From NCBI RefSeq assembly GCF_015351105.1, contig NZ_JADKRR010000002.1:310001-374000 (forward strand): 64,000 nucleotides of DNA. Direction: 5' to 3'. The DNA is from Clavibacter sp. VKM Ac-2872 (GTDB lineage: Bacteria; Actinomycetota; Actinomycetes; Actinomycetales; Microbacteriaceae). The translations under genes and the position numbers were made by a program. The stretch's first letter is position 1, and each line of letters begins with the position of its first letter. This document shows positions 3,049-60,437 of this stretch, piece after piece. The notes beneath the pieces were generated by a model. It was not told the origin of the DNA. It did no database searches and saw nothing but the letters and a program-made list of their open reading frames with translations.

Positions 3049-3654
3049 ATGCAGCTCTACTCCGCGCTCCCCCTCGTCCGTGCCCGGCAGATCGCGTCCG
3101 ACACCGCGGCGCTCGCGGGCATCGTCATGTCGGTGCTCGTGGGGATCGCCGTGGCCGCGCTCATCCGCCCGCTCGGCGAGCTCGGGCGCAGCATGGAGGA
3201 GTCGGGCGCGCGGCTCAGCGGATCCATGACCGACGCCGCCGACGCCCTCGGCCGCCTGCCGCTCGTGGGCGACGCGGCGCGCGGCCCGTTCGAGGACGCG
3301 AGCGGCATCGGATCCGGCCTCGTGCAGGCCGGGCGGGACCAGCAGTCGCTCGTCGGCACCATCGCGCTCCTGCTGGGGCTCCTCGTGGCGCTCGTGCCGA
3401 TCGCGTTCATCGTGCGGCACTGGCTGCTGCGGCGCGTGTCGTTCGTGCGGCGCGCGGCCGCCGCCCGATCCCTCGCCGCGACGCCCGGCGGCACCGAGCT
3501 GCTCGCGCTGCGGGCGCTGTCGTCGCGGAAGCCGGCGTCGCTCCTGAAGGCGCACCCGGATCCGGTCGCCGGATGGCGCGCGGGCGACCCGCGCGCCATC
3601 CGGCAGCTCGCCGACCTGGCGCTGCGCGACGCGGGGGTGTCGGCGGGGCGCTGA
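3049..3654 (+). CDS. Hypothetical two-TM membrane protein
   Basis: A 201-residue protein with two clear membrane segments. One is near residues 21-41 (LAGIVMSVLVGIAVAALI) and the second near 105-125 (LLLGLLVALVPIAFIV). The extracytoplasmic loop of about 60 residues between them is rich in Gly, Ser and Asp. The C-terminal cytoplasmic part is Ala/Arg-rich and ends with DPRAIRQLADLALRDAG. It looks like a conserved actinobacterial membrane protein without assigned function. It starts 47 bases after the preceding gene and may be cotranscribed. Confidence 0.7.
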   Translation: MQLYSALPLVRARQIASDTAALAGIVMSVLVGIAVAALIRPLGELGRSMEESGARLSGSMTDAADALGRLPLVGDAARGPFEDASGIGSGLVQAGRDQQSLVGTIALLLGLLVALVPIAFIVRHWLLRRVSFVRRAAAARSLAATPGGTELLALRALSSRKPASLLKAHPDPVAGWRAGDPRAIRQLADLALRDAGVSAGR

Positions 3655-3710
3655 TCCGGCGCGGCCGCCCGATGTGACGCGGGGCGCAGGGGAGGAGCAT
3701 CCTCGAACCC

Positions 3711-4448
3711 ATGTCGCCTCTCCTCCTGGCCGGCCTCGCCGGCCTGCTCTCCGGGCTGTCGCTGGTCGTCGGGTCGCTCGTCGCGTGGTTCGTGAAGGTG
3801 CCGCGCGAGGTCGTCGCGCTGGTGATGGCGTTCGGCGCGGGCGTGCTCATCTCGGCGCTGTCGTTCGACCTGGTCGACGAGGCGGCGGCGAGCGGCGGCG
3901 TGATCCCCACGCTCGGCGGCTTCGTCGCGGGCGCGGTCGTGTACGTGGTGCTCGACCAGATCCTCGAGCACGGCGGGTTCCGCCGGAAGCACCACGGCAA
4001 GTCGGGCGGCGGAGGCGGCACCGGTGTGGGGATCGCGCTCGGCGCCCTGCTCGACGGCGTGCCCGAGACAGCCGTGCAGGGCCTCAGCCTCACGGGCGGC
4101 GGGGCGCTGAGCATCGGCGTGCTCGTGGCGGTCGTCATCTCGAACTTCCCCGAGGGCATGTCGAGCACGGCCGACCTCAAGCAGAGCGGACGCAGCGCGC
4201 GCTACGTGTTCGGGCTCTGGACCTCCATCGCCGTGGTCTGCGCGCTCTCGTCCCTCGGCGGCTACGCACTGCTCGGCGGCCTGCCGGAGAGCGGCCAGTC
4301 GGTGGTGATGGCGTTCGCGGCCGGCGCGATCCTCGCGATGATCTGCGACACGATGATCCCCGAGGCGTTCCGCAAGGCGCAGGCGCTCACCGGGCTCGTG
4401 ACGGTGCTCGGCTTCGTGGCGAGCTACGCGGTGCACCAGGCGGGATGA
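3711..4448 (+). CDS. ZIP-family metal transporter
   Basis: A 245-residue integral membrane protein with about seven hydrophobic segments and a Gly/His-rich loop (RKHHGKSGGGGG) near residues 87-100, matching the ZIP family of divalent-metal permeases. The TM4 signature appears as SNFPEGMS instead of the usual HNxPEG. The preceding helix GALLDGVPETAVQG holds acidic residues usual in the transport path. The His-to-Ser change makes the metal specificity uncertain. ATG at 3711 gives a family-typical N-terminus. Confidence 0.8.
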   Translation: MSPLLLAGLAGLLSGLSLVVGSLVAWFVKVPREVVALVMAFGAGVLISALSFDLVDEAAASGGVIPTLGGFVAGAVVYVVLDQILEHGGFRRKHHGKSGGGGGTGVGIALGALLDGVPETAVQGLSLTGGGALSIGVLVAVVISNFPEGMSSTADLKQSGRSARYVFGLWTSIAVVCALSSLGGYALLGGLPESGQSVVMAFAAGAILAMICDTMIPEAFRKAQALTGLVTVLGFVASYAVHQAG

Positions 4449-10971: not shown

Positions 10972-11739
10972 ATGCCCGTCGCGCCCATGGCTCCGCTCTT
11001 AACCCATTCTCTCGTGGCAGTGCTTCGCCGGTCCGAATCAGGATCTAAGGCTTTTCTGGGCCTTGCATCCGATGGTCGTCATTACTGGGTTAAGCCGTGG
11101 AACAACCCGCAAGGTGCTCGCACACTGGTTGCGGAGCTGATTGCGTATCGCATTGGCTGGCTTATAGGCGCCCCTGTTCCTGAACACGCCCTCCTTACCA
11201 TACCTAACAACTTTGTCGACAGCTACGCAGACGGCCTCAGGCTTCACCAGGGGACTTGTCACGCATCGCTAAACCTAGAAGACGTCATTGAATCAGATGA
11301 GTGGGACACATACTCCCGACTGGATGACAACGCATACCGCCAGGCCTTCATTGTCGGCCTCTGGGACTTGTGCCTAGGCGGAGACCCCCAGTGGCTACAC
11401 CAGACAAAGGAAGACCAAAGTATTTGGACCTTCGATCATGGCATGTGGCTGGCCGGGGAGGCCGACTGGGATCTCCCGTCACTCAGGCGTATTGGGACAA
11501 GCGAATGGCAACACGACGTCGACACCAGCGTGACTTCCGATCTCGGCCTACTCGCAGCGGCAGATGCCATCGACTCCTTGTCCCTTGAAGACTTCCAGGC
11601 CGTAGTCTCCCTAGTCCCACTAGAGTGGGACACCGACAGGTCTGAGCTTGCGGAGCTTGCGTCTATACTATTTGTTCGCTCGGAGGCAGTGGCGGCTCGC
11701 CTGCGCCGAGCGGCCTCCAACCACAGCCACGATACGTAA
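10972..11739 (+). CDS. HipA-like kinase family protein
   Basis: A 255-residue protein resembling the stand-alone HipA-like kinase domain (HipA_2 type). Recognisable parts: a start region with GSKAFLGLASDGRHYWVK, in which the Lys fits the ATP-binding lysine; LVAELIAYRIGWLIGAPVPE; a catalytic-loop-like stretch FIVGLWDLCLGGDPQW; and a metal-binding FDHG near residue 157. The usual Asp-Arg of the loop is not conserved, so activity is uncertain. Stop overlaps the ribosome binding site of the DUF3037 gene nine bases downstream, so the two are one operon. This pair recurs in many bacteria. Codon use differs strongly from the neighbours, indicating transfer. Confidence 0.75.
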   Translation: MPVAPMAPLLTHSLVAVLRRSESGSKAFLGLASDGRHYWVKPWNNPQGARTLVAELIAYRIGWLIGAPVPEHALLTIPNNFVDSYADGLRLHQGTCHASLNLEDVIESDEWDTYSRLDDNAYRQAFIVGLWDLCLGGDPQWLHQTKEDQSIWTFDHGMWLAGEADWDLPSLRRIGTSEWQHDVDTSVTSDLGLLAAADAIDSLSLEDFQAVVSLVPLEWDTDRSELAELASILFVRSEAVAARLRRAASNHSHDT

Positions 11740-11748
11740 GGAGCGTCC

Positions 11749-12594
11749 ATGACATACCAATATTGGACAATCCGTTTTGTGCCCAATGTAGCCAGGGGTG
11801 AATTCACAAACATAGGTATCGTTTGCGGCAAAGACGGCAGCGACTGGGCCGTGGGGTTCGATACGCGATACATTCGCAATCACGGAGACTGGCACAACGA
11901 CGTCCGTGAGCTTAATCCATGGATCAGTAATTTTCGCCGCGTAGTCAATCAGCACCGTCATGAACAACTGACCAAAAGTGGCATGAGCGTAGCCTATGTT
12001 GAGCATCTTCGTTCTCGTCAAGTCAACGCCATTCAATTTAGCGAGCGACAATCCGTCGATGCTTCTTCTGCCGAGGACGGCGTAAACATACTCTTTCCCC
12101 ATCTAGTTACTCGGACAACAAAGCGTCGTAGAGTCGGGCTAACTCGGGCCCGAATCCGTAATGAAATACGGGATTACCTCGTAGGGATTGAGGACTTTAA
12201 AGTCGGATATGACCTATTCCTAAATACAAAAGCTAGCATAGGAAAGCAGCGGGGTGGCTTTGACCTCCTCAGGGCCGGTGATGAAGGTCGGGTACTCACA
12301 AACGCGTGGGCGTTTAATGTAGTGACGCTTGAAGTTCTTGAGCGGGAGATTCAATCGTGGAACTATCTAGTCACACGGTTGCGAGATACGGGGGGAACTT
12401 TGTCATTCCTAGACGGGCGAACCTTACATCTGGAGCCTGACGTCCCCATCCAGGTCGTCTTTGATGAGCCGATATCGGAGCGACAGGCCGAATGGAGAAG
12501 TGACATATTCGACGCCGCCCGCGAGGCTTGGCAACTTAACGGAGTCGAGGCCATCAATTACCAGACGATGGAGAGCGCGTTGAGCACACAGTAA
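11749..12594 (+). CDS. DUF3037 domain-containing protein
   Basis: A 281-residue protein. The N-terminus (YQYWTIRFVPNVARGEFTNIGIV) matches the DUF3037 signature of short proteins found next to HipA-like kinases. The region after about residue 125 is less recognisable. An AAGGAG ribosome binding site overlaps the stop of the kinase gene, giving tight coupling. Function is unknown. By context it is the partner, substrate or regulator of the kinase, possibly a toxin-antitoxin-like or defence pair (inference). Confidence 0.75.
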   Translation: MTYQYWTIRFVPNVARGEFTNIGIVCGKDGSDWAVGFDTRYIRNHGDWHNDVRELNPWISNFRRVVNQHRHEQLTKSGMSVAYVEHLRSRQVNAIQFSERQSVDASSAEDGVNILFPHLVTRTTKRRRVGLTRARIRNEIRDYLVGIEDFKVGYDLFLNTKASIGKQRGGFDLLRAGDEGRVLTNAWAFNVVTLEVLEREIQSWNYLVTRLRDTGGTLSFLDGRTLHLEPDVPIQVVFDEPISERQAEWRSDIFDAAREAWQLNGVEAINYQTMESALSTQ

Positions 12595-52292: not shown

Positions 52293-52366
52293 GCGAGTGT
52301 AGTTCAATGGTAGAACTTCAGCTTCCCAAGCTGATAGCGCGGGTTCGATTCCCGTCACTCGCTCCA
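52293..52366 (+). tRNA. tRNA-Gly (anticodon CCC)
   Basis: A full cloverleaf: acceptor GCGAGTG pairs with CACTCGC, the D-arm contains AGTTCAATGGTAGAACT, the anticodon stem is TCAGC/GCTGA with loop TTCCCAA (anticodon CCC), and the T-arm is CGGGTTCGATTCCCG. The 3' CCA (52364-52366) is encoded. The lower-GC island begins right after its 3' end, a common integration site. Confidence 0.96.
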
Positions 52367-52524
52367 TCTGCGAACGTTTCAACTCGGTTCACCCGCGGCA
52401 CATGTCCGAAATCCTTGGCTGAGTTGAAGTCCCATTGCTCACGTCGGGGTCCTATGGGCAAAGCGATGTCCTGCGCACTCGGCGACAAAGCCTCACTTCG
52501 CCCTCGAACATCCAACCCATGCGG

Positions 52525-52803
52525 CTACTGAGGTGCTCGATCGTTAGTGATCCATGCAAAAGCAACCTCCAGCGAGGAACAAGCCGCTGCCCGAGTGTCG
52601 GGCATGTTGCCCGCATAGCCTTGCCACTGCCCTTCCTCTAGCTCAGCGCGCCCCCAAACCTCCGCGTAGATACTCGGCCCGGCCCCATGCCGAGACACTA
52701 CCCACACCTCCCGTTCGTCCTGCCGCCAGGCATTGAAGGTATAACCGCTTCGGGAATTTTCGAACGTTAGCCGATGGGGAGTCACTTCTTGCATGATGAT
52801 CAC
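52525..52803 (-). CDS. Hypothetical protein (92 aa) in the island
   Basis: A 92-residue frame with balanced amino-acid content: LTFENSRSGYTFNAWRQDER, VWVVSRHGAGPSIYAEVWG and a C-terminal LEVAFAWITNDR. No family recognised. The start is a GTG at 52803 or ATG at 52794; neither has a strong ribosome site. It may be real but could be chance in this AT-richer stretch. The rest of 52367-53053 shows no other convincing gene. Confidence 0.4.
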   Translation of the reverse strand: MIIMQEVTPHRLTFENSRSGYTFNAWRQDEREVWVVSRHGAGPSIYAEVWGRAELEEGQWQGYAGNMPDTRAAACSSLEVAFAWITNDRAPQ

Positions 52804-53053
52804 AGGTAAACACTAACCGGCAACTTGGCGCGGTTCCAACCATTCGACGACACCTTTCGACCCCAGCTGCCCCCAATTGTGGGGCCATGTGAGTTAAGGG
52901 GTTGCGCTCGGCGCATCAACTACTTAACCATATAAACGACGCCACCCACAGAACAGGTTCTGAAAAAGCGGATTCGCCTTAGCTGGGACGTAAAAACGTT
53001 CGTAGCCAATACGGTGGCACCAACAGTTTGACTGACACATAAGGGAATAAACG

Positions 53054-54013
53054 GTGCTTGCCATAACAGAGCAATCGTTAGATGACGTCATGGGCGCCTG
53101 TATCTCACACTTGCTTAGAGCGGGTGAGGTCATAAGTACGACTCGCGGCCTAAGTACAGAACTTCGAGGCGTTTCCCTTGAGCTTACAAACCCTCGCGCA
53201 CGTATGAGCCGCAGCGCAAGCCGCGGTCGCCTCTTTAGCGCGCTCGGAGAACTTACGTGGTACCTGTCCGGCAGCGCTGACCCAGAGCATATTTCATATT
53301 ATCTCCCTAAGTATTCCGAAAACGTCGGGGACTTTAGCGGATCCTATGGTCCTCGCTTATTCGGGCCAGGGAGGGGGGCTCAAGTAGCGGGAGTGATCGA
53401 TCAGTTGAGGGCTAGCCCAACCACGCGAAAAGCCGTCGTGCAACTTTTCGACCGGTCCGATCTTTTGGGAAACGCGAAGGACGTCCCCTGCACTTGTACT
53501 TTGCAGTTCTTCGTAAGAGACAGCAAGGTTGAACTAGTTGTATACATGAGATCAAATGATGTCATGTTCGGACTATTACATGACGTTTTCTCGTTCACGT
53601 TCCTCCAGGAGCTCATTGCCAGCACCCTAAGCCTAGAAATTGGAACGTATAAACACGTGGTCGGAAGCTTGCACCTCTATAGCGACCAAGAGGATGAGGC
53701 TCGTGCGTTCCTAAAAGAGGGCGCCTTCATGGATACACCAATGCCAGCTATGCCCAAAACCGATCCATGGGCAATGGTTGCGTGGATATTGTCACTAGAG
53801 CGCAGCTTACGTGCCAGCGGCTCAGCGCCCATAGATGAACACGCGCCCGATTACTGGAATCAGTTAGCTTTGGTCTTGAGAAGCTGGAGTGCCTATAAAA
53901 CACAAGATCTTCAGATGTTGAAGAGTTTGCAAATTCAGCTTGAAGGTAGCCCGTATGCAGCATCTGTTCGTGACAGAATGCACATTTTGGAGGCGCAGCG
54001 TGGTTCGAAATAA
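53054..54013 (+). CDS. Thymidylate-synthase-like enzyme, predicted (d)CMP hydroxymethylase or methylase
   Basis: A 319-residue member of the thymidylate synthase fold. SYGPRLFG, the phosphate-binding Arg in TTRKAVVQLFD, the catalytic Cys in DVPCTCTLQFFV and YMRSNDVMFGLL are all present, as is the late GSLHLYSD. In ThyA the last segment continues with an Asn (Asn177 in E. coli) that fixes uracil; here that position is Asp (LLHDVFSF). The same change is found in T4 dCMP hydroxymethylase and converts TS to dCMP methylase when engineered. The usual His after the Cys is Thr. GTG start at 53054 with AAGGGA upstream. It overlaps the partner gene by 14 bases. Foreign codon use. Confidence 0.75.
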   Translation: MLAITEQSLDDVMGACISHLLRAGEVISTTRGLSTELRGVSLELTNPRARMSRSASRGRLFSALGELTWYLSGSADPEHISYYLPKYSENVGDFSGSYGPRLFGPGRGAQVAGVIDQLRASPTTRKAVVQLFDRSDLLGNAKDVPCTCTLQFFVRDSKVELVVYMRSNDVMFGLLHDVFSFTFLQELIASTLSLEIGTYKHVVGSLHLYSDQEDEARAFLKEGAFMDTPMPAMPKTDPWAMVAWILSLERSLRASGSAPIDEHAPDYWNQLALVLRSWSAYKTQDLQMLKSLQIQLEGSPYAASVRDRMHILEAQRGSK

Positions 54014-54941
54014 CTACATAGATGATTGGCGGCGGATCGACGCAGCCCTCACGAAATACGCAGAGGTCACCGCCGAACTCCCAGGACTAAGTTCTCCTGA
54101 GCTCCGCGATGCATTAATACAGCAAATTATTGACAGCGAACAGCGTGTTCTGTATACCGACCGCCTCCTCCTTCGTGACCTCGATCCTTGCGCAACAGAT
54201 CCGCGGCTGCCCGAGTTCGATCCACTAAAAGCTGCGATAATTCACAATAGGGCTGGAAGATTCGACGAAGCGGTCTGGCTTGTTTACATGTATGTTCACT
54301 TTGGTAAGCATCGCCGCGCCGGTTGGCGATACATTCGCGATACGTATGGTGCATTTGGATCCGGTCCAACCGAATGGTGGACGTGGAATCGGACAGCCGA
54401 GGACCCTGCAAGCTTTAGGTACTGGTTACACGATCACCAAGCTGAGTACTCAAAGGAAGCAGGGCCTCGCGGCTTTGGAAACCACCGCAAGTATGTAAGC
54501 CTCGACGCACTCGGGGATCGAGGAACCGGCGCTGCCGTGGAAAGCTATGTCGAATGGGTTCTCGAGCCAGGCGGCGATCATTCGGAACGATTTGCGGACC
54601 TGAAGCAAGTTAGTCCCGAGCGCACTTTTGACACGATGTACAAGTCTTTAAGTTCCGTGATTCAGTTCGGGCGAATTGCCCGGTTTGATTACCTAACCAT
54701 GCTTGCAAAGCTGAAATTGGTCGACGTCAACCCGCCACATTCTTACCTCATTGGCGCTACCGGACCGTTATCCGGCGCACGCCTCTTGCTCCGTGGAGAC
54801 CCTACGGTCGGGAATGCGCGTGAGCTTCAGGCAGAGTTGGCTAACTTAGGTCGTGAGATTTCCGTTTCTCCCGACGTCTTAGAAGACGCTATATGTAATT
54901 GGCAGAAAAGCCCGACGTCGTACGTCAGATTTTCAGCATAG
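54000..54941 (+). CDS. Partner of TS-like enzyme; resembles thymine-hypermodification (HhH-glycosylase-like) proteins
   Basis: A 313-residue protein. GTG start at 54000, preceded by GGAGG at 53988-53992 inside the TS-like gene, so the two form an operon. The N-terminal half is helical (YIDDWRRIDAALTKYAEV). The C-terminal half has IARFDYLTMLAKLKLVDVNP, LIGATGPLSGARLLLRGD and a late VLEDAICNWQK. This resembles, by memory of the pattern, the alpha-glutamyl/putrescinyl-thymine pyrophosphorylase and 5-hmdU kinase helical families of phage DNA hypermodification. That assignment is tentative. No membrane or signal sequence. Confidence 0.55.
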   Translation: MVRNNYIDDWRRIDAALTKYAEVTAELPGLSSPELRDALIQQIIDSEQRVLYTDRLLLRDLDPCATDPRLPEFDPLKAAIIHNRAGRFDEAVWLVYMYVHFGKHRRAGWRYIRDTYGAFGSGPTEWWTWNRTAEDPASFRYWLHDHQAEYSKEAGPRGFGNHRKYVSLDALGDRGTGAAVESYVEWVLEPGGDHSERFADLKQVSPERTFDTMYKSLSSVIQFGRIARFDYLTMLAKLKLVDVNPPHSYLIGATGPLSGARLLLRGDPTVGNARELQAELANLGREISVSPDVLEDAICNWQKSPTSYVRFSA

Positions 54942-56016
54942 CGCCGTCCCAGCGATATCTCCGAATTAAATACTGCATTTGATTGTAACGGATTATCTTT
55001 GCGTGGTGGAGTTGCCCGACAACAAGGCCAGGCGATATTCCCTGACTGGCAGCGAAAGCAACGACTCGGCGAGTGGTCAATCGTCCCTCTGATAAAGTAC
55101 CGAGCCCAGATGGAATGAGTATAGAGCGAGCGTGCTCATTGGCTTCGTGCTCAACAAGCGAGTCCGCATCCGCCGGATCCATGGTATCTAGGAAATCGCC
55201 GGCATCGCCGTGGAGTAGGAGATGACCTATCTCGTGAAATAATGTAAACCAAAAATGATCCTCCGAAAGATGCCGCCCGGTCAGCCCGATCACGCGCCGC
55301 TGATCATGCGCGACAAAGGCAGCCCCGCTAAGCCTGTTTTCCGGTGTCGCCGGCAATATCACCAGCGCAACTCCAGCGGAGGCAAGTAGCGCTTGAGCTT
55401 GCGGTACAAACTTTTGCGGATTGCTAAGCAGTGATAGGCGCCGGAGCGGAGGCAGCACCGCGCGAACGCCTGACGGACTCCAAGCAGAAAGGTTCAGCTG
55501 ATTCGCTTTTATCTCTGCACAGCGGAGCCAGGCAGAAACTGAGAGGTCATGTGACTCAAACGTTGGTGAGGTCCGAAAGTTTGCCTCTTTTAAACGTGAG
55601 GACCATGTGCGGACCCATTCGTCCGTCGTGTTAACGCCGTAAAACGCGAGTAGCGACCGGGCCCGAGCAGCCCACTCCGTTGTGCCCTCGATCCATCCTT
55701 TTTGAACCATATATTCCATAGGGGAATCTTGAGCCAATTGGTCCGCCGCCAATAAACTCATTGATTCACGGTAATTAGACTCTCGTGATTCCCAAAAATG
55801 CGCGGTCGACCCTAACGCGCCCGCCAATTTGTTTGCGAGCGAGGAGGTGATCGTCAATTCACCGTTAATGAGTCGGCGCAGTTGAGGATCACTGAGCTCC
55901 AATGCGTCAGCTAGACTCTCCCAAGTCAAACCTCTTGACTCCATTAGTTTACGTACTGTCGAGCCAGGTGCAGAGACCCAATGCGGTTCAGTTGCTAAAG
56001 CAGAGTTCAGAGTCAT
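54925..56016 (-). CDS. HTH-XRE antitoxin fused to ImmA/IrrE-type (M78) metallopeptidase domain
   Basis: A 363-residue protein. Residues about 15-80 form an XRE helix-turn-helix (RKLMESRGLTWESLADALEL, PQLRRLINGELTITSSLANK), as in HigA. Residues 200-300 hold the M78 peptidase motif HEIGHLLLHG, with Zn ligands and a later EHEANEHARSILIP. Such HigA-ImmA fusions pair with HigB-like toxins. The ATG at 56016 overlaps the toxin stop by four bases. It is convergent with the TS-like partner gene (17-base overlap). Confidence 0.85.
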   Translation of the reverse strand: MTLNSALATEPHWVSAPGSTVRKLMESRGLTWESLADALELSDPQLRRLINGELTITSSLANKLAGALGSTAHFWESRESNYRESMSLLAADQLAQDSPMEYMVQKGWIEGTTEWAARARSLLAFYGVNTTDEWVRTWSSRLKEANFRTSPTFESHDLSVSAWLRCAEIKANQLNLSAWSPSGVRAVLPPLRRLSLLSNPQKFVPQAQALLASAGVALVILPATPENRLSGAAFVAHDQRRVIGLTGRHLSEDHFWFTLFHEIGHLLLHGDAGDFLDTMDPADADSLVEHEANEHARSILIPSGLGTLSEGRLTTRRVVAFAASQGISPGLVVGQLHHAKIIRYNQMQYLIRRYRWDGAMLKI

Positions 56017-56336
56017 ACGCGCTTTACCTCCCAAGCAAGGATTTTAATCCTGCTAATGCGATGCCAATCAGGGTGTCCGTCGGCTGTGGTTCTGATAGGT
56101 ACGTGATTCACGCAACAGACCACAAATCCCTCCCTTCCCGTATCCATTCGAAAATTACCCACGTCAATGTGGTTGAGGTCTGGAACACCCACAGGTACTT
56201 CTTTTAAGGACGTCGCGGCAATTATGTCTGCGATCAAGGACGTGGTTTCTTCAAAAGCCTCGAATGAACTCCAATCCCCTACATCTGGATGTAGGAGCTG
56301 TCGCCGAAGCTGACTATCCTTAAAACTAATCTCCAT
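56013..56336 (-). CDS. HigB/RelE-type killer toxin (probable)
   Basis: A 107-residue protein that precedes and overlaps the antitoxin gene, the usual HigBA order. The N-terminus has LRRQLLHPDVGD; the middle ADIIAATSLKEVPVGVPDL matches the plasmid-maintenance killer pattern; the end DWHRISRIKILAWEV resembles the last beta strand of HigB-like RNases. The central basic GDRxGQ region is altered (FRMDTGREG), so activity is uncertain. RelE-type toxins cleave ribosome-bound mRNA. Confidence 0.55.
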   Translation of the reverse strand: MEISFKDSQLRRQLLHPDVGDWSSFEAFEETTSLIADIIAATSLKEVPVGVPDLNHIDVGNFRMDTGREGFVVCCVNHVPIRTTADGHPDWHRISRIKILAWEVKRV

Positions 56337-56523
56337 AGACGTCCCCTCTGCTGCCCCAGTGGATCACGCCGCGGTCAGGGGAGTCGACGGCTAGGGCCGT
56401 TCGGTTGAGAACAGCATACGTCGTCGAACTGCTCCGAGTGTTGCAGTCAGCAGTTCTTCTTTGGCGAGGTCTTTTAGCTCACAACTCCTTGCGATCTGTC
56501 TCTTGGGGTGCCGAACGATATAT
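56337..56523. other. Island right border, no gene seen
   Basis: This stretch holds no convincing gene. A minus-strand frame around 56391-56588 exists but has no ribosome site and runs into the GntR remnant. GC content rises from left to right here, so the island boundary probably lies within it, or at the truncated GntR gene. Confidence 0.4.
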
Positions 56524-57075
56524 CTATGAGACCGCGCTACTGACCTCGGCCAACGACCACGCCATCCCCGCCTCTGCCGTCGCCGCATCGCCGTCGCGGA
56601 TCGCGTGCGCCACCTGCTCGTGCGTGTCGAGCGGATGCGGCCTCGGCGTCCGCGGCATCAGCCCCTGGTGCGTGCGACCACTGAGGACCTCCGTGATCAC
56701 CTCGCGGAGGGCGCAGAACATGTCGATGCCACTGGCCACGAGGATCAGGTGGTGGAACTCGATGTCGGCGGCGAGGTAGTCGACGAGGACGCTGGCCTCG
56801 CCGAAGCGGCGGAGATCCACCGCGAGCTCGGCGATGCGCGTGTGCTGCGCATCAGTTGCGTCACGCGCAGAGAGTGACGCCGCGACCGGCTCGACCGCGC
56901 GGCTCAGCTGGGTGAGGGAGCGGAACTGGTCCGAGCGGCCGGGGCCGTTGAGGCGCCAGCGGATGATGCGCGGGCCGTAGACGTTCCAATGGCCGAGGCC
57001 TTGCACCACGAGGCCCACGCGGCGCTTCGAGACGAGGAGCGCCAGCGCCTAGAGGACGCGCACGCGGCCCCGGGT
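56524..57075 (-). pseudogene. GntR-family regulator remnant (FCD domain, HTH lost)
   Basis: The frame from about 57018 to 56524 encodes the end of the GntR winged helix (VSKRRVGLVVQGLGHWNVYG) and the full C-terminal FCD ligand domain (YLAADIEFHHLILVASG, DTHEQVAHAIRDGD). Upstream, in the same frame, a TAG at 57049-57051 stands where RVLEALGL-type sequences have Glu. Beyond 57075 no HTH homology remains in any frame. It is therefore a truncated regulator, probably once of the adjacent gluconate permease. Confidence 0.75.
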
Positions 57076-57202
57076 GTTGTGTAGAAGCACCGCGAGCGGC
57101 CCCACCGCCGCCCGCCCCACGCAGGCACCGACGCCCACCTCCCCGGCCGGGCGTCGCCGCACGCGACGCGATCCACGGATCCGCCCAGCCGAACGGAGAC
57201 CC

Positions 57203-58603
57203 ATGACCATCGAAGACTGGACGCAGACCCTCACCGCGGGTCCGCTCCTCCTGATCGCCGCGGGCGCCATCGCCGTGCTGCTGATCCTGATCATCACGCT
57301 GCGCATCCACGCGTTCGTCGCGCTGATCCTCGTGAGCCTCGCCACCGCGTTCGCCACCGGGATCCCGACCTCGCAGATCGTGACCGTGCTCGTCGGCAGC
57401 TTCGGCTCCACGCTCGGCACGGTCGCGCTGCTCGTGGGACTCGGCGCGATGCTCGGCCGCCTGGTCGAGACCAGCGGCGGCGCGAAGACGCTGGCCGACA
57501 CGCTGATCCGCATATTCGGCGAGAAGCGCGCCCCGTTCGCGCTCGGGGTCGCGTCGCTCATCTTCGGCTTCCCGATCTTCTTCGACGCCGGGCTCGTCGT
57601 GATGCTGCCCATCGTCTTCTCCGTGGCCCGTCGCCTCGGCGGCGGCGTGCTCCGCTACGGCCTCCCCGCGGCCGGCGCCTTCTCCGTTATGCACATCTTC
57701 GTGCCGCCGCACCCCGGCCCCGTCGCGGCGTCCGAGTTCTTCGGCGCGAACGTCGGCATCGTGATCATCGTCGGCCTCATCGCGGCGATCCCCACCTGGT
57801 ACGTCACCGCGTACCTCTACGGGCTGTGGGCGGGCAAGAAGTTCGTGCTGCCGATCCCCTCGCTCATGGGCGAGGCCGACGCGCACGCCGAGTCGAACCC
57901 GCCCAAGTTCGGCACCGTCCTCGCCGTGCTGCTGCTCCCGCTGCTCCTCATCTTCCTGAACACCGGCCTCAACGCCGCATCGACCGGCGGCCTTCTCCCC
58001 GAGGGCACGAGCGACCAGGCCTGGTACCAGGTGCTCCGCACCATCGGCGAGACTCCCGTCGCGCTCCTCATCGCGCTGCTGTTCGCGGCGTTCGTGCTCG
58101 GCCGTCGCCGCGGGATCGACAAGTCGGCGCTCGAGAAGACGCTCGAGTCGGCGCTCGGCCCGGTCTGCTCCGTGATCCTCATCACCGGCGCCGGCGGCAT
58201 GTTCGGCGGCGTCCTCCGCACCAGCGGCATCGGCGACGCCCTCGCCGACGTGCTCGGCGACCTCGGCATCCCGATCATCCTGGCCGGGTTCCTCATCGCG
58301 GCGATCCTCCGCGTCGCGCAGGGGTCCGCGACCGTCGCGCTCACCACCGCCGCGGGCCTCGTCTCCCCGGCGATCCTCGCGGGCGACTTCAACGCGTTCC
58401 AGGTCGCGGCGCTCGTCGTGGCGGTGGCGGGCGGATCCGTGGTCGCGAGCCACGTGAACGACTCCGGCTTCTGGCTCGTCGGCCGCTTCTTCGAGATGGA
58501 CGTGAAGACGACCCTCAAGACGTGGACGGTGATGGAGACCGCGATCGGCGTCATGGGCTTCGCGATCGCGGCGGCGGTGTTCGGGGTGGCGTCGCTGGCG
58601 TGA
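57203..58603 (+). CDS. GntP-family gluconate:H+ symporter
   Basis: A 466-residue membrane protein of the GntP family with 12-14 TM helices. Typical motifs: GFPIFFDAGLVVMLPIVF, FSVMHIFVPPHPGPVAASEFFGAN, GSATVALTTAAGLVSP and SHVNDSGFWLVGRFF. It takes up gluconate or a related sugar acid. ATG at 57203 is preceded by GGAGAC. The adjacent GntR gene is broken, so expression may be constitutive or controlled elsewhere. Confidence 0.9.
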   Translation: MTIEDWTQTLTAGPLLLIAAGAIAVLLILIITLRIHAFVALILVSLATAFATGIPTSQIVTVLVGSFGSTLGTVALLVGLGAMLGRLVETSGGAKTLADTLIRIFGEKRAPFALGVASLIFGFPIFFDAGLVVMLPIVFSVARRLGGGVLRYGLPAAGAFSVMHIFVPPHPGPVAASEFFGANVGIVIIVGLIAAIPTWYVTAYLYGLWAGKKFVLPIPSLMGEADAHAESNPPKFGTVLAVLLLPLLLIFLNTGLNAASTGGLLPEGTSDQAWYQVLRTIGETPVALLIALLFAAFVLGRRRGIDKSALEKTLESALGPVCSVILITGAGGMFGGVLRTSGIGDALADVLGDLGIPIILAGFLIAAILRVAQGSATVALTTAAGLVSPAILAGDFNAFQVAALVVAVAGGSVVASHVNDSGFWLVGRFFEMDVKTTLKTWTVMETAIGVMGFAIAAAVFGVASLA

Positions 58604-58776
58604 CGCGGCGCCCCCGCCTTCCGGGAGGCGGCCCGGGAGGCTGGCCTCGTACCACGGCGATACGCCCTTCGCTGGGTATGCCGTCAGAGCCTGTGGAGAA
58701 GGAGCCGTCCGGTCGCTAGCGTGTTGAGCGCTGATCAGCTCGACCGTCCGACTCCGATCCGAGAGGACCCAGGAAG

Positions 58777-59307
58777 ATGAAGCGCAAGAATCAGATGTCA
58801 GCCCTCCTGCTCAGCGGTGCTGTGGGAGTGGCCCTCGCATTCGGCGGGGCGAGTCCCGCCGTGGCAGCCGCATCATCGGCTCCCGCAGCATCCACCGGCC
58901 AGAGCGCGCCGTCGGAGGCCCAGCTCCGGGACTTCGAGCAGGGCCTCGCCCTCGTGGAGCAGATCCCCGACGACGTCCTCCACCAGGGCGACGCCGCCAC
59001 GCAGCAGTGGCTGGCCGCGAACGCTCCCGCGAACACCGCACCGGAGGGCATGGTGAGCACGCAGGCCAGCGTGCTCGGCTGCGGCGCGGCGATCGCGACC
59101 GTCATCGCGTCCACGGCGTTCCCCGCCGCGAAGATCCTCAAGATCAAGGCCCTGATCAAGTCGCTCGGCGGCGTCACGGAGGCCGCCAAGATCATGTGGG
59201 GCGCGAGCTTCTCCTATGAGAAGGTGCAGGCCCTCGGCGGTGCCGCGGCCGCCCTCGCGGGTGAGCTCATCGGCGTCACCCAGATCAAGGAGCAGTGCTT
59301 CTCATGA
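58777..59307 (+). CDS. Small secreted protein, possible bacteriocin-like
   Basis: A 176-residue protein with a Sec signal (KRKNQMSALLLSGAVGVAL, AFGGASPAVAA). After an acidic, Ala/Gln-rich stretch comes a C-terminal 75-residue part: LGCGAAIATVIASTAFPAAK, LKIKALIKSLGGVTEAAKIM and a final EQCFS. This cationic, amphipathic, glycine-rich helix with two Cys is bacteriocin-like, but I recognise no family. The stop overlaps the start of a small membrane protein gene by four bases. GAGAGGACC lies upstream of the ATG. Confidence 0.65.
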   Translation: MKRKNQMSALLLSGAVGVALAFGGASPAVAAASSAPAASTGQSAPSEAQLRDFEQGLALVEQIPDDVLHQGDAATQQWLAANAPANTAPEGMVSTQASVLGCGAAIATVIASTAFPAAKILKIKALIKSLGGVTEAAKIMWGASFSYEKVQALGGAAAALAGELIGVTQIKEQCFS

Positions 59308-59570
59308 GCCGCTGGTTCCGGGCCCTCGCGCCGATCCTCCTGACCCTCCTCGCGGTCGTGACCTTCTTCGCGGTCGATCGCATCCTCGGGATGCTCCTCA
59401 TCGTGGTGGCCCTGGCCGTCGCGTTCCTCTCCGGCCGAGCCGTGCTCGGGCGGGTGCCGGTCAGGCCGGAGGCTGACGTCGACCCGCAGGAGGTGCGCGC
59501 CTACCGCGAGAGCCACCCCGGCACCTCCATCGGCGACGCGGTGACCGCGGTCGCCCGCAAGCGCGGCTGA
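59304..59570 (+). CDS. Small membrane protein (88 aa)
   Basis: An 88-residue protein with two TM helices (ALAPILLTLLAVVTFFAV, ILGMLLIVVALAVAFLSG) and a hydrophilic tail (RVPVRPEADVDPQEVRAYRE). Its ATG overlaps the stop of the secreted-protein gene (ATGA), so the two are translationally coupled. By position it could be a dedicated immunity or export partner (inference). Confidence 0.65.
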   Translation: MSRWFRALAPILLTLLAVVTFFAVDRILGMLLIVVALAVAFLSGRAVLGRVPVRPEADVDPQEVRAYRESHPGTSIGDAVTAVARKRG

Positions 59571-59613
59571 CGCCGCGCGACACGGAGGCACGTCCCTCCG
59601 GAGCCCGGGTGGC

Positions 59614-59640
59614 GCGGGCCGCCGCGTTCAGGCGGCCCGC
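59614..59640. terminator. Terminator-like hairpin between convergent genes
   Basis: A perfect 10-bp stem GCGGGCCGCC (59614-59623)/GGCGGCCCGC (59631-59640) with a seven-base loop lies after the small membrane gene. It covers the stop codon of the convergent glycosylase gene. No U-run. Confidence 0.55.
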
Positions 59641-60437
59641 ACCACCGGCTGGCAACGCGGACACCACCACGCCCGCCGCCCGCGCTCGCTCGTGCTCCCC
59701 GGATCGTCGACGCCGAGCACCGTCGTCCCGCAGCGCAGGCACGGCCGGCCCGCGCGGCCGACCACCCAGTGCGTGCGGCCGCGGCGGGGATCGCCGGACG
59801 TGATCTGGTACGCGGCCGGCACCGTCGCCGAGTGCCGGAGCGCGCGGGCGGCGAGGTCGACGAGCGGCGGCAGGTCCACGTCCCTGACCCGCGTCGCCGG
59901 GTGCACCCCGCGCAGGAAGCCGACCTCGTTGACCCAGAGGTTGCCGAGGCCCGACATGGGGCGCTGGTCGAGGAGGGCGGCGCGGATCGTCTCGTCGGGG
60001 CGGGCCGCGAGGCGGGAGACGGCGAGCGCCGGATCCCAGTCGTCGCGCAGCGGGTCGGGACCGAGGTGGCCGATGGCCGCGCGCTCGTCGCGGGTGGGGA
60101 TCAGCTCGACCACGGGCAGGTCGACGCCCCAGAGCGTGCGGCCGTCGTCGAGGCGGAGGCGCACGCGCACCTGGTGCTGGATCCGCGCGGGCACCCGTTT
60201 GCCCGCACCGGTGACCGTCCACGAGCCCTGCATGCGCAGGTGCGTGTGGAGGGTGGTGGCGTCGTCGAGCCGCATGAGCAGGTGCTTGCCGTGCGTGTCG
60301 AACCCGGTGATCCGCCTGCCGTCGAGCCGCGCGCCCGCCCGCGCGCCGGACCGGAGCTCCCCGTCGGCGATGAGCGCCCCGCCGACCTGGGCGCGGAGGC
60401 GGGCGGCGAGGACGAAGACGGAGTCACCCTCGGGCAT
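59628..60437 (-). CDS. Formamidopyrimidine-DNA glycosylase / endonuclease VIII family (Nei2-like)
   Basis: A 269-residue base-excision repair enzyme of the Fpg/Nei family. The N-terminus PEGDSV provides the catalytic Pro and Glu, DTHGKHLLMRL holds the catalytic Lys, LHTHLRMQGSW a DNA-binding strand, and the C-terminal zinc finger is CLRCGTTVLG...WWCPRC. The PEGD start is typical of Nei2. It removes oxidised pyrimidines. Start ATG at 60437. Confidence 0.9.
   Translation of the reverse strand: MPEGDSVFVLAARLRAQVGGALIADGELRSGARAGARLDGRRITGFDTHGKHLLMRLDDATTLHTHLRMQGSWTVTGAGKRVPARIQHQVRVRLRLDDGRTLWGVDLPVVELIPTRDERAAIGHLGPDPLRDDWDPALAVSRLAARPDETIRAALLDQRPMSGLGNLWVNEVGFLRGVHPATRVRDVDLPPLVDLAARALRHSATVPAAYQITSGDPRRGRTHWVVGRAGRPCLRCGTTVLGVDDPGSTSERGRRAWWCPRCQPVVRAA

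Follow-up and report, generated by a model that had tools for sequence, protein, structure and literature searches.

Organization of the locus

The DNA considered here, hereafter the window, is a 64,000-nucleotide stretch of Clavibacter sp. VKM Ac-2872 (Actinomycetota; Microbacteriaceae; contig NZ_JADKRR010000002.1, positions 310,001 to 374,000). Between a tRNA-Gly gene and a conserved FCD/GntP flank it holds a candidate defense cassette of four genes, coding for a thymidylate synthase (TS)-like enzyme, a partner of the aGPT-Pplase3 family, and, on the opposite strand, an XRE-ImmA protein and a small HigB-like protein (Table 1). An original prediction, made from the letters alone, had singled out the first two genes as a modification module on a genomic island. 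The island is borne out by base composition, with a GC fraction of 0.47-0.59 in 200-base steps, compared with ~0.74 in the surroundings, and the unit extends to 56336, two minus-strand genes beyond the TS/partner pair. The TS and partner open reading frames (ORFs) overlap by 14 nt, the TS stop codon lying at 54011-54013; the partner likely starts at the GTG at 54000, the longest ORF being one that would begin with the TTG at 53940. The partner and XRE-ImmA genes overlap tail to tail by 17 nt, including the stop of the latter.

Table 1. Features of the tRNA-Gly slot and its cassette, in window coordinates
Feature	Position	Strand	Remarks
TS-superfamily protein, predicted dCMP 5-hydroxymethylase	53054..54013	+	GTG start, 319 aa; PF00303, MilA match, residue counts; key residues R125, D143, C146, S167, D177, H207, Y209
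aGPT-Pplase3/ADDT-family protein (partner)	54000..54941	+	313 aa; predicted DNA-glycosylase-like all-helical fold
XRE helix-turn-helix and ImmA/IrrE zinc-peptidase-type protein	54925..56034	-	PF01381, PF06114, PD-Lambda-2_B-like; HEIGH at residue 267
Small HigB-like protein	56013..56336	-	107 aa; upstream of XRE-ImmA gene, overlapping; profile comparison
tRNA-Gly(CCC), left edge of insertion slot	52293..52366	+	ARAGORN
Variable low-GC slot, tRNA-Gly to conserved FCD/GntP flank	52367..56529		

The TS-like enzyme is probably of the dCMP type

The product of the first gene matches the TS family PF00303 at 1.1e-22 (80.9 bits; cut-off 24.3). Its best match in the PDB is the CMP hydroxymethylase MilA (5b6d, 6e-39), the best thymidylate synthase following at 8.4e-19, and T4 dCMP (deoxycytidine monophosphate) hydroxymethylase is not among the 60 PDB matches listed. 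All eight NCBIfam TS models listed scored below their cut-offs (best 75.2 versus 327 bits). An intact TS fold had been described, with a catalytic Cys and a substrate-binding Arg, a Thr in place of the His that follows the Cys, and an Asp, in the motif FGLLHD, at the position of Asn177 of Escherichia coli ThyA, and each of these readings holds: Cys146, Thr147, Arg166, and Asp177, together with Ser167, are each present in 91 of the 91 cassette TS proteins compared, some of which are near-identical. The Asn that would mark a dUMP methylase at position 177 was accordingly seen in none of them. Position 125 is Arg in 88, Lys in 2, and a gap in 1, and the residue three before the catalytic Cys, Asp143 in the window, is distributed as D 58, E 19, S 9, N 2, A 2, and P 1.

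Several published rules bear on these residues. In the available text of the sources, an Asp where TS has Asn is common to MilA, BcmA, and T4 dCMP hydroxymethylase (PMC5175136), and Asp177 conforms to this cytosine-type rule for the base-selecting site (PMC5175136, PMC6400193). MilA and BcmA carry Lys and Ala at sites that hold Arg and Ser in the deoxy enzymes, and the MilA A176S/K133R double mutant shifts to dCMP (PMC5175136); the cassette enzyme has the deoxyribose-type Ser and Arg in place of Ala176 and Lys133 of MilA. In the T4 enzyme, hydroxymethylation is marked by an Asp three before the Cys and a Ser two before the Tyr (PMC6400193). By the MilA and T4 rules, the combination of Asp177, Ser167, and Arg125 predicts dCMP, rather than CMP or dUMP, as the substrate. 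Judged by its residues, the enzyme is probably of the dCMP type and hydroxymethylating.

A search of the host genome found no other PF00303 protein and one ThyX; hence, the enzyme does not duplicate a ThyA of the host, and the earlier description of it as separate from the host's thyA is not supported, no other such gene having been found. The TS-like protein is matched by 2,400 phage records, all at less than 60% identity.

The partner belongs to the aGPT-Pplase3 family

The partner matches the Pfam family aGPT-Pplase3 (PF18746) at 1.6e-82, with 277.5 bits (cut-off 25), and its second Pfam match is to ADDT (PF18724; 1.3e-54). The original prediction had been reminded of aGPT-PPlase- and HMUDK-type proteins; the first half of this comparison stands, and the second was not recovered, the HMUDK family matching neither the TS-like protein nor the partner. 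The earlier predictions behind the family names are said to go back to Iyer 2013 and Burroughs 2015 as their likely sources. Structure prediction gives an all-helical model that resembles the phage glycinyltransferase PUGT (top VIA-align rows 8z2n and 8z2m) and DNA glycosylases, the latter presumably of the helix-hairpin-helix class. A search of 50,697 phage records gave no match to the partner; four viral-contig loci carry its relatives.

The convergent genes may form a toxin-antitoxin-like arm

The XRE-ImmA protein matches the PADLOC model PD-Lambda-2_B at 2.7e-33, and an HExxH motif is found in 90 of 91 XRE-ImmA proteins of the cassette, the exception being split across two ORFs. On its own the small window protein has no match in Pfam or PADLOC, and none of 58 small proteins matches the PADLOC model PD-Lambda-2_A. 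Its likeness to HigB comes from comparing profiles with hhalign: the 58-row profile of the small family against 30 HigB (PF05015) segments gave 94.1% (E 1.3e-7), eleven other pairings in the same run reaching at most 0.6%, and an earlier comparison with a noisy HigB set had given 88.0%. HigB-type killer-protein chains in the PDB match the small family weakly, with E values of at least 0.12. The PD-lambda-2 system combines a HigB-like A with an XRE-peptidase B in a toxin-antitoxin-like defense pair, in which B is toxic alone, A rescues, and C is required for defense, as described in the available text of PMC9519451. PD-Lambda-2_C was not detected among the five island proteins scanned. A shared operator upstream of both operons was also considered and rejected, since common words averaged 8.38 over 82 loci and 8.09 when the pairs were mismatched, which is no excess.

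The cassette is conserved as a unit across phyla

A scan of genome contigs with the partner, covering 84,980 species genomes, returned 154 stretches that encode a relative, of which the best 80 were kept; with four viral contigs, seven plasmids, one genome of the same family, and the window itself, these make up 93 loci. Counting is thus conditioned on the partner as query. TS was found in 91 of these loci, XRE-ImmA in 91 (always on the opposite strand), and the small protein in 90. Contig ends account for the absences in L014 (TS), L032 and L087 (XRE-ImmA and small protein), and L054 (small protein), and L081 is the only locus without a detected TS inside its contig. The convergent stops lie at most 60 nt apart in 87 of 91 loci and overlap in 56. 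In L024 (5032-6939), the TS and aGPT-Pplase3 matches share a single 635-aa open frame, as a natural fusion. Because the TS/partner pairing is conserved across phyla and occurs fused in this locus, it is not due to chance.

By record titles, the loci span at least nine phyla (Actinomycetota, Acidobacteriota, Chloroflexota, Planctomycetota, Verrucomicrobiota, Gemmatimonadota, Bacteroidota, Pseudomonadota, and Spirochaetota). Eight plasmids match, and TS, partner, and XRE-ImmA are present on each of the seven that were read; a Clavibacter lycopersici contig carries the cassette too. Among relatives its occurrence is sporadic (2 of 149 genomes, its own included), and 7 of 396 genomes of the phylum, again counting its own, have matches, five of them weak and partial. 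The four proteins show correlated pairwise identities (r of 0.61-0.75 over 83 loci), for which shared descent alone could suffice. Five genomes from one other family of the phylum (L006-L010) have distant PF18746 matches over part of the profile. The cassette on a Pantoea plasmid (L018) adjoins a gene for an Mrr-type restriction endonuclease (3396-4277; PF04471, 9.1e-16).

A further gene with a uracil-DNA glycosylase (UDG) fold is added in 30 of the 93 loci and is not present in the window. Its identity comes from the predicted fold; Pfam, PDB, and hhalign gave none by sequence. Of the two UDG profiles compared by hhalign, one stems from a seed that appears to be off frame, and the valid test is the other, built on 20 UDG segments of the GQDPY type, with other UDG families not tried. 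In L034 (7856-8662) and L043 (7366-8181), this gene lies between partner and XRE-ImmA and not between TS and partner.

The insertion slot holds defense-like cargo in sister genomes

All 18 genomes of the genus share the dcd/tRNA-Gly flank. In the 17 others, likeness to the window ends at the 3' end of the tRNA (1.5 kb compared) and, among the matches listed, resumes with the FCD/GntP flank from ~56530 in 15 and from ~57070 in two. The region 52367-60000 contains no repeat of the tRNA, whether direct or inverted, that spans 12 nt or more and could represent attR. We examined the slots of 16 sisters lacking the cassette, which have a GC fraction of 0.53-0.62, flanks included, and contain 57 ORFs of at least 90 aa, none of them a homologue of TS, partner, XRE-ImmA, or the small protein. 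A PADLOC scan of 20 of these 57 ORFs, most of them among the largest, gave 18 matches, spread over 14 of the 16 sister genomes; as a control, 1 of 10 window genes matched, at 35 bits. The cargo includes PDC-S06 (four), Tmn, PDC-S46, a type III methylase, AriA/Old-like, QatA, PtuA (two), Old, PD-Lambda-2_C, and AbiU; PDC models stand for systems that are themselves candidates, and part of the AAA matches are of a generic kind. Hence, the tRNA-Gly slot looks like a defense hotspot, and of all the present findings its cargo in sisters speaks most strongly for an anti-phage role of the cassette.

Some further observations concern the slot and its surroundings. The slot of L190 gave no PADLOC match; it encodes a 477-aa protein (780-2213), without PADLOC or Pfam match, that recurs at 98% in L195 (860-2293), which was outside the PADLOC scan, and is a candidate defense gene. 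In L197 (399-1424), a PD-Lambda-2_C-like protein (1.2e-34) occurs with no XRE-ImmA partner detected among the slot ORFs. Within the window, a low-GC ORF of 92 aa on the minus strand (52525-52803), between tRNA and cassette, has no Pfam or PADLOC match. In a second low-GC islet (10972-12594, plus strand), a gene for a HipA_2-like protein (PF20613, 1e-10) precedes one for a DUF3037 protein (1.1e-7); the HipA-family kinase and DUF3037 are among the defense-validated domains in the available text of PMC13092281.

Proposed function and alternatives

Residues, family, and slot cargo lend support to the suggestion of a nucleotide- or DNA-modification module in a defense-like context, which we regard as probable on this predictive basis. 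Three features go beyond what had been pointed out: the convergent XRE-ImmA/HigB-like pair, the deoxy-type sugar residues, and the defense-like cargo of the sister slots. With function predicted from residues, from family and fold, and from the analogy with PD-lambda-2, we favor a mobile anti-phage cassette in which cytosine modification is combined with a toxin-antitoxin arm, a proposal to which we would give an even chance. In such a cassette, the TS-like enzyme, by virtue of its residues, would use methylene-tetrahydrofolate to convert dCMP to 5-hydroxymethyl-dCMP, which host kinases might then raise to the triphosphate and polymerases incorporate into DNA. The aGPT-Pplase3 protein, going by its family and predicted fold, might flip the modified base out of DNA and add an amino acid or amine, on the model of phage relatives that elaborate thymine likewise; excision is a possible outcome instead. 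By analogy with PD-lambda-2, the HigB-like/XRE-ImmA pair could serve as a regulator or an abortive-infection arm, restrained in the healthy cell and freed once infection disturbs the modified nucleotide or DNA. A bolder reading, which we entertain tentatively and consider less likely than not, is a bacterial immune system acting on a modified base of its own making: dCMP would be hydroxymethylated and enter replicating (phage) DNA, where proteins with a DNA-glycosylase fold, namely aGPT-Pplase3 and, in about one third of the copies, a UDG-fold protein, would attack or elaborate it, and HigB/XRE-ImmA would fire if the process were disturbed.

Two observations weigh against the proposed modification. 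The Ser that the T4 enzyme carries two residues before its catalytic Tyr corresponds to Gly96 in the window (G 77 and S 8 among the 91 proteins). Further, thymine hypermodification proceeds by a kinase and then a transferase, with a hydroxymethyl-base DNA kinase in the phage pathway locus, and no kinase family was found among the six island proteins scanned.

The main rival, in our estimate a rather unlikely one, replaces elaboration with excision: hydroxymethyl-dCMP would enter fast-replicating phage DNA, and the partner, joined by the UDG-fold protein where present, would cut it out to leave abasic sites. However, the nearest fold rows and Pfam names of the partner are those of transferases, in 63 of the 93 loci no UDG-fold gene was detected within the sequence retrieved, and some switch against self-harm would be needed. 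Unlikely, too, is a chemistry confined to free nucleotides, in which the product would be a signal or a chain-poisoning nucleotide that controls the XRE-ImmA/HigB arm and not a DNA base. TS-type enzymes do act on mononucleotides, the toxin arm is linked in nearly all loci, the missing DNA kinase fits this option, and the MilA product is the precursor of an antibiotic, mildiomycin (PMC5175136); the deoxy-type sugar residues, including the invariant Ser167, and the DNA-glycosylase-like fold nevertheless point to DNA. Improbable, in our view, is an addiction or stabilization cassette, whose toxin-antitoxin pair would keep the element while the enzymes mark the DNA of the element itself, phage defense playing no part: carriage on plasmids and the HigB-like/XRE pair would suit it, but the same slot holds other genes matching defense models in 14 of the 16 sister genomes examined. 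That the island merely acquired an ordinary thymidylate synthase, as the PF00303 match and a host without another ThyA might suggest, is hardly credible given the invariant Asp177, the failure of the NCBIfam models, and the ThyX of the host.

So far, base modification has mostly been encountered as a means by which phages shield themselves. If the proposed function is real, a widespread bacterial gene set would itself make a cytosine precursor, linked to a partner that probably acts on DNA and to a toxin-antitoxin-like arm, and modification would here be put to use by the host. It also suggests what the clade-3 aGPT-Pplases, hitherto merely predicted to be defensive, work with. As far as literature searches tell, the dCMP-type assignment, the PD-lambda-2-like arm, the UDG-fold companion, and the hotspot are new here.

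Comparison with known systems

In alignment, the TS-like enzyme shares with MilA the cytosine-type Asp, the Cys-Thr pair, and the Asp three before the Cys; it differs in that MilA has the ribose-type Lys133 and Ala176 where the cassette has the deoxyribose-type Arg and Ser, and MilA belongs to a different context (PMC5175136). With T4 dCMP hydroxymethylase it has in common the predicted substrate, the Cys, and the equivalents of Asp179 and Asp145 (PMC6400193). However, the equivalent of Ser94 is Gly in the window, because of which we do not file the enzyme as T4-type, and the T4 enzyme comes from a phage replication gene rather than a bacterial cassette. The partner is likened to the phage aGPT-Pplases and amino acid:DNA transferases, such as PUGT of phage PaMx11, by its Pfam family names and fold rows; in contrast to the phage systems, it is of clade 3, comes without a kinase, and is predicted to act on cytosine instead of thymine. 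The arm resembles PD-lambda-2 in its XRE-ImmA protein and, by profile comparison, in a small HigB-like partner, whereas in place of component C, which was not found, the cassette has TS and aGPT-Pplase3. Finally, the DefensePredictor systems, compared here by text and not by figures, share the TS and aGPT-Pplase domains with the cassette: in the available text of that study, the thymidylate synthase domain is among the newly validated defense domains, aGPT-Pplase is a predicted defense domain left unvalidated there, and UDG occurs only within the abbreviation list of Fig. 6F (PMC13092281).
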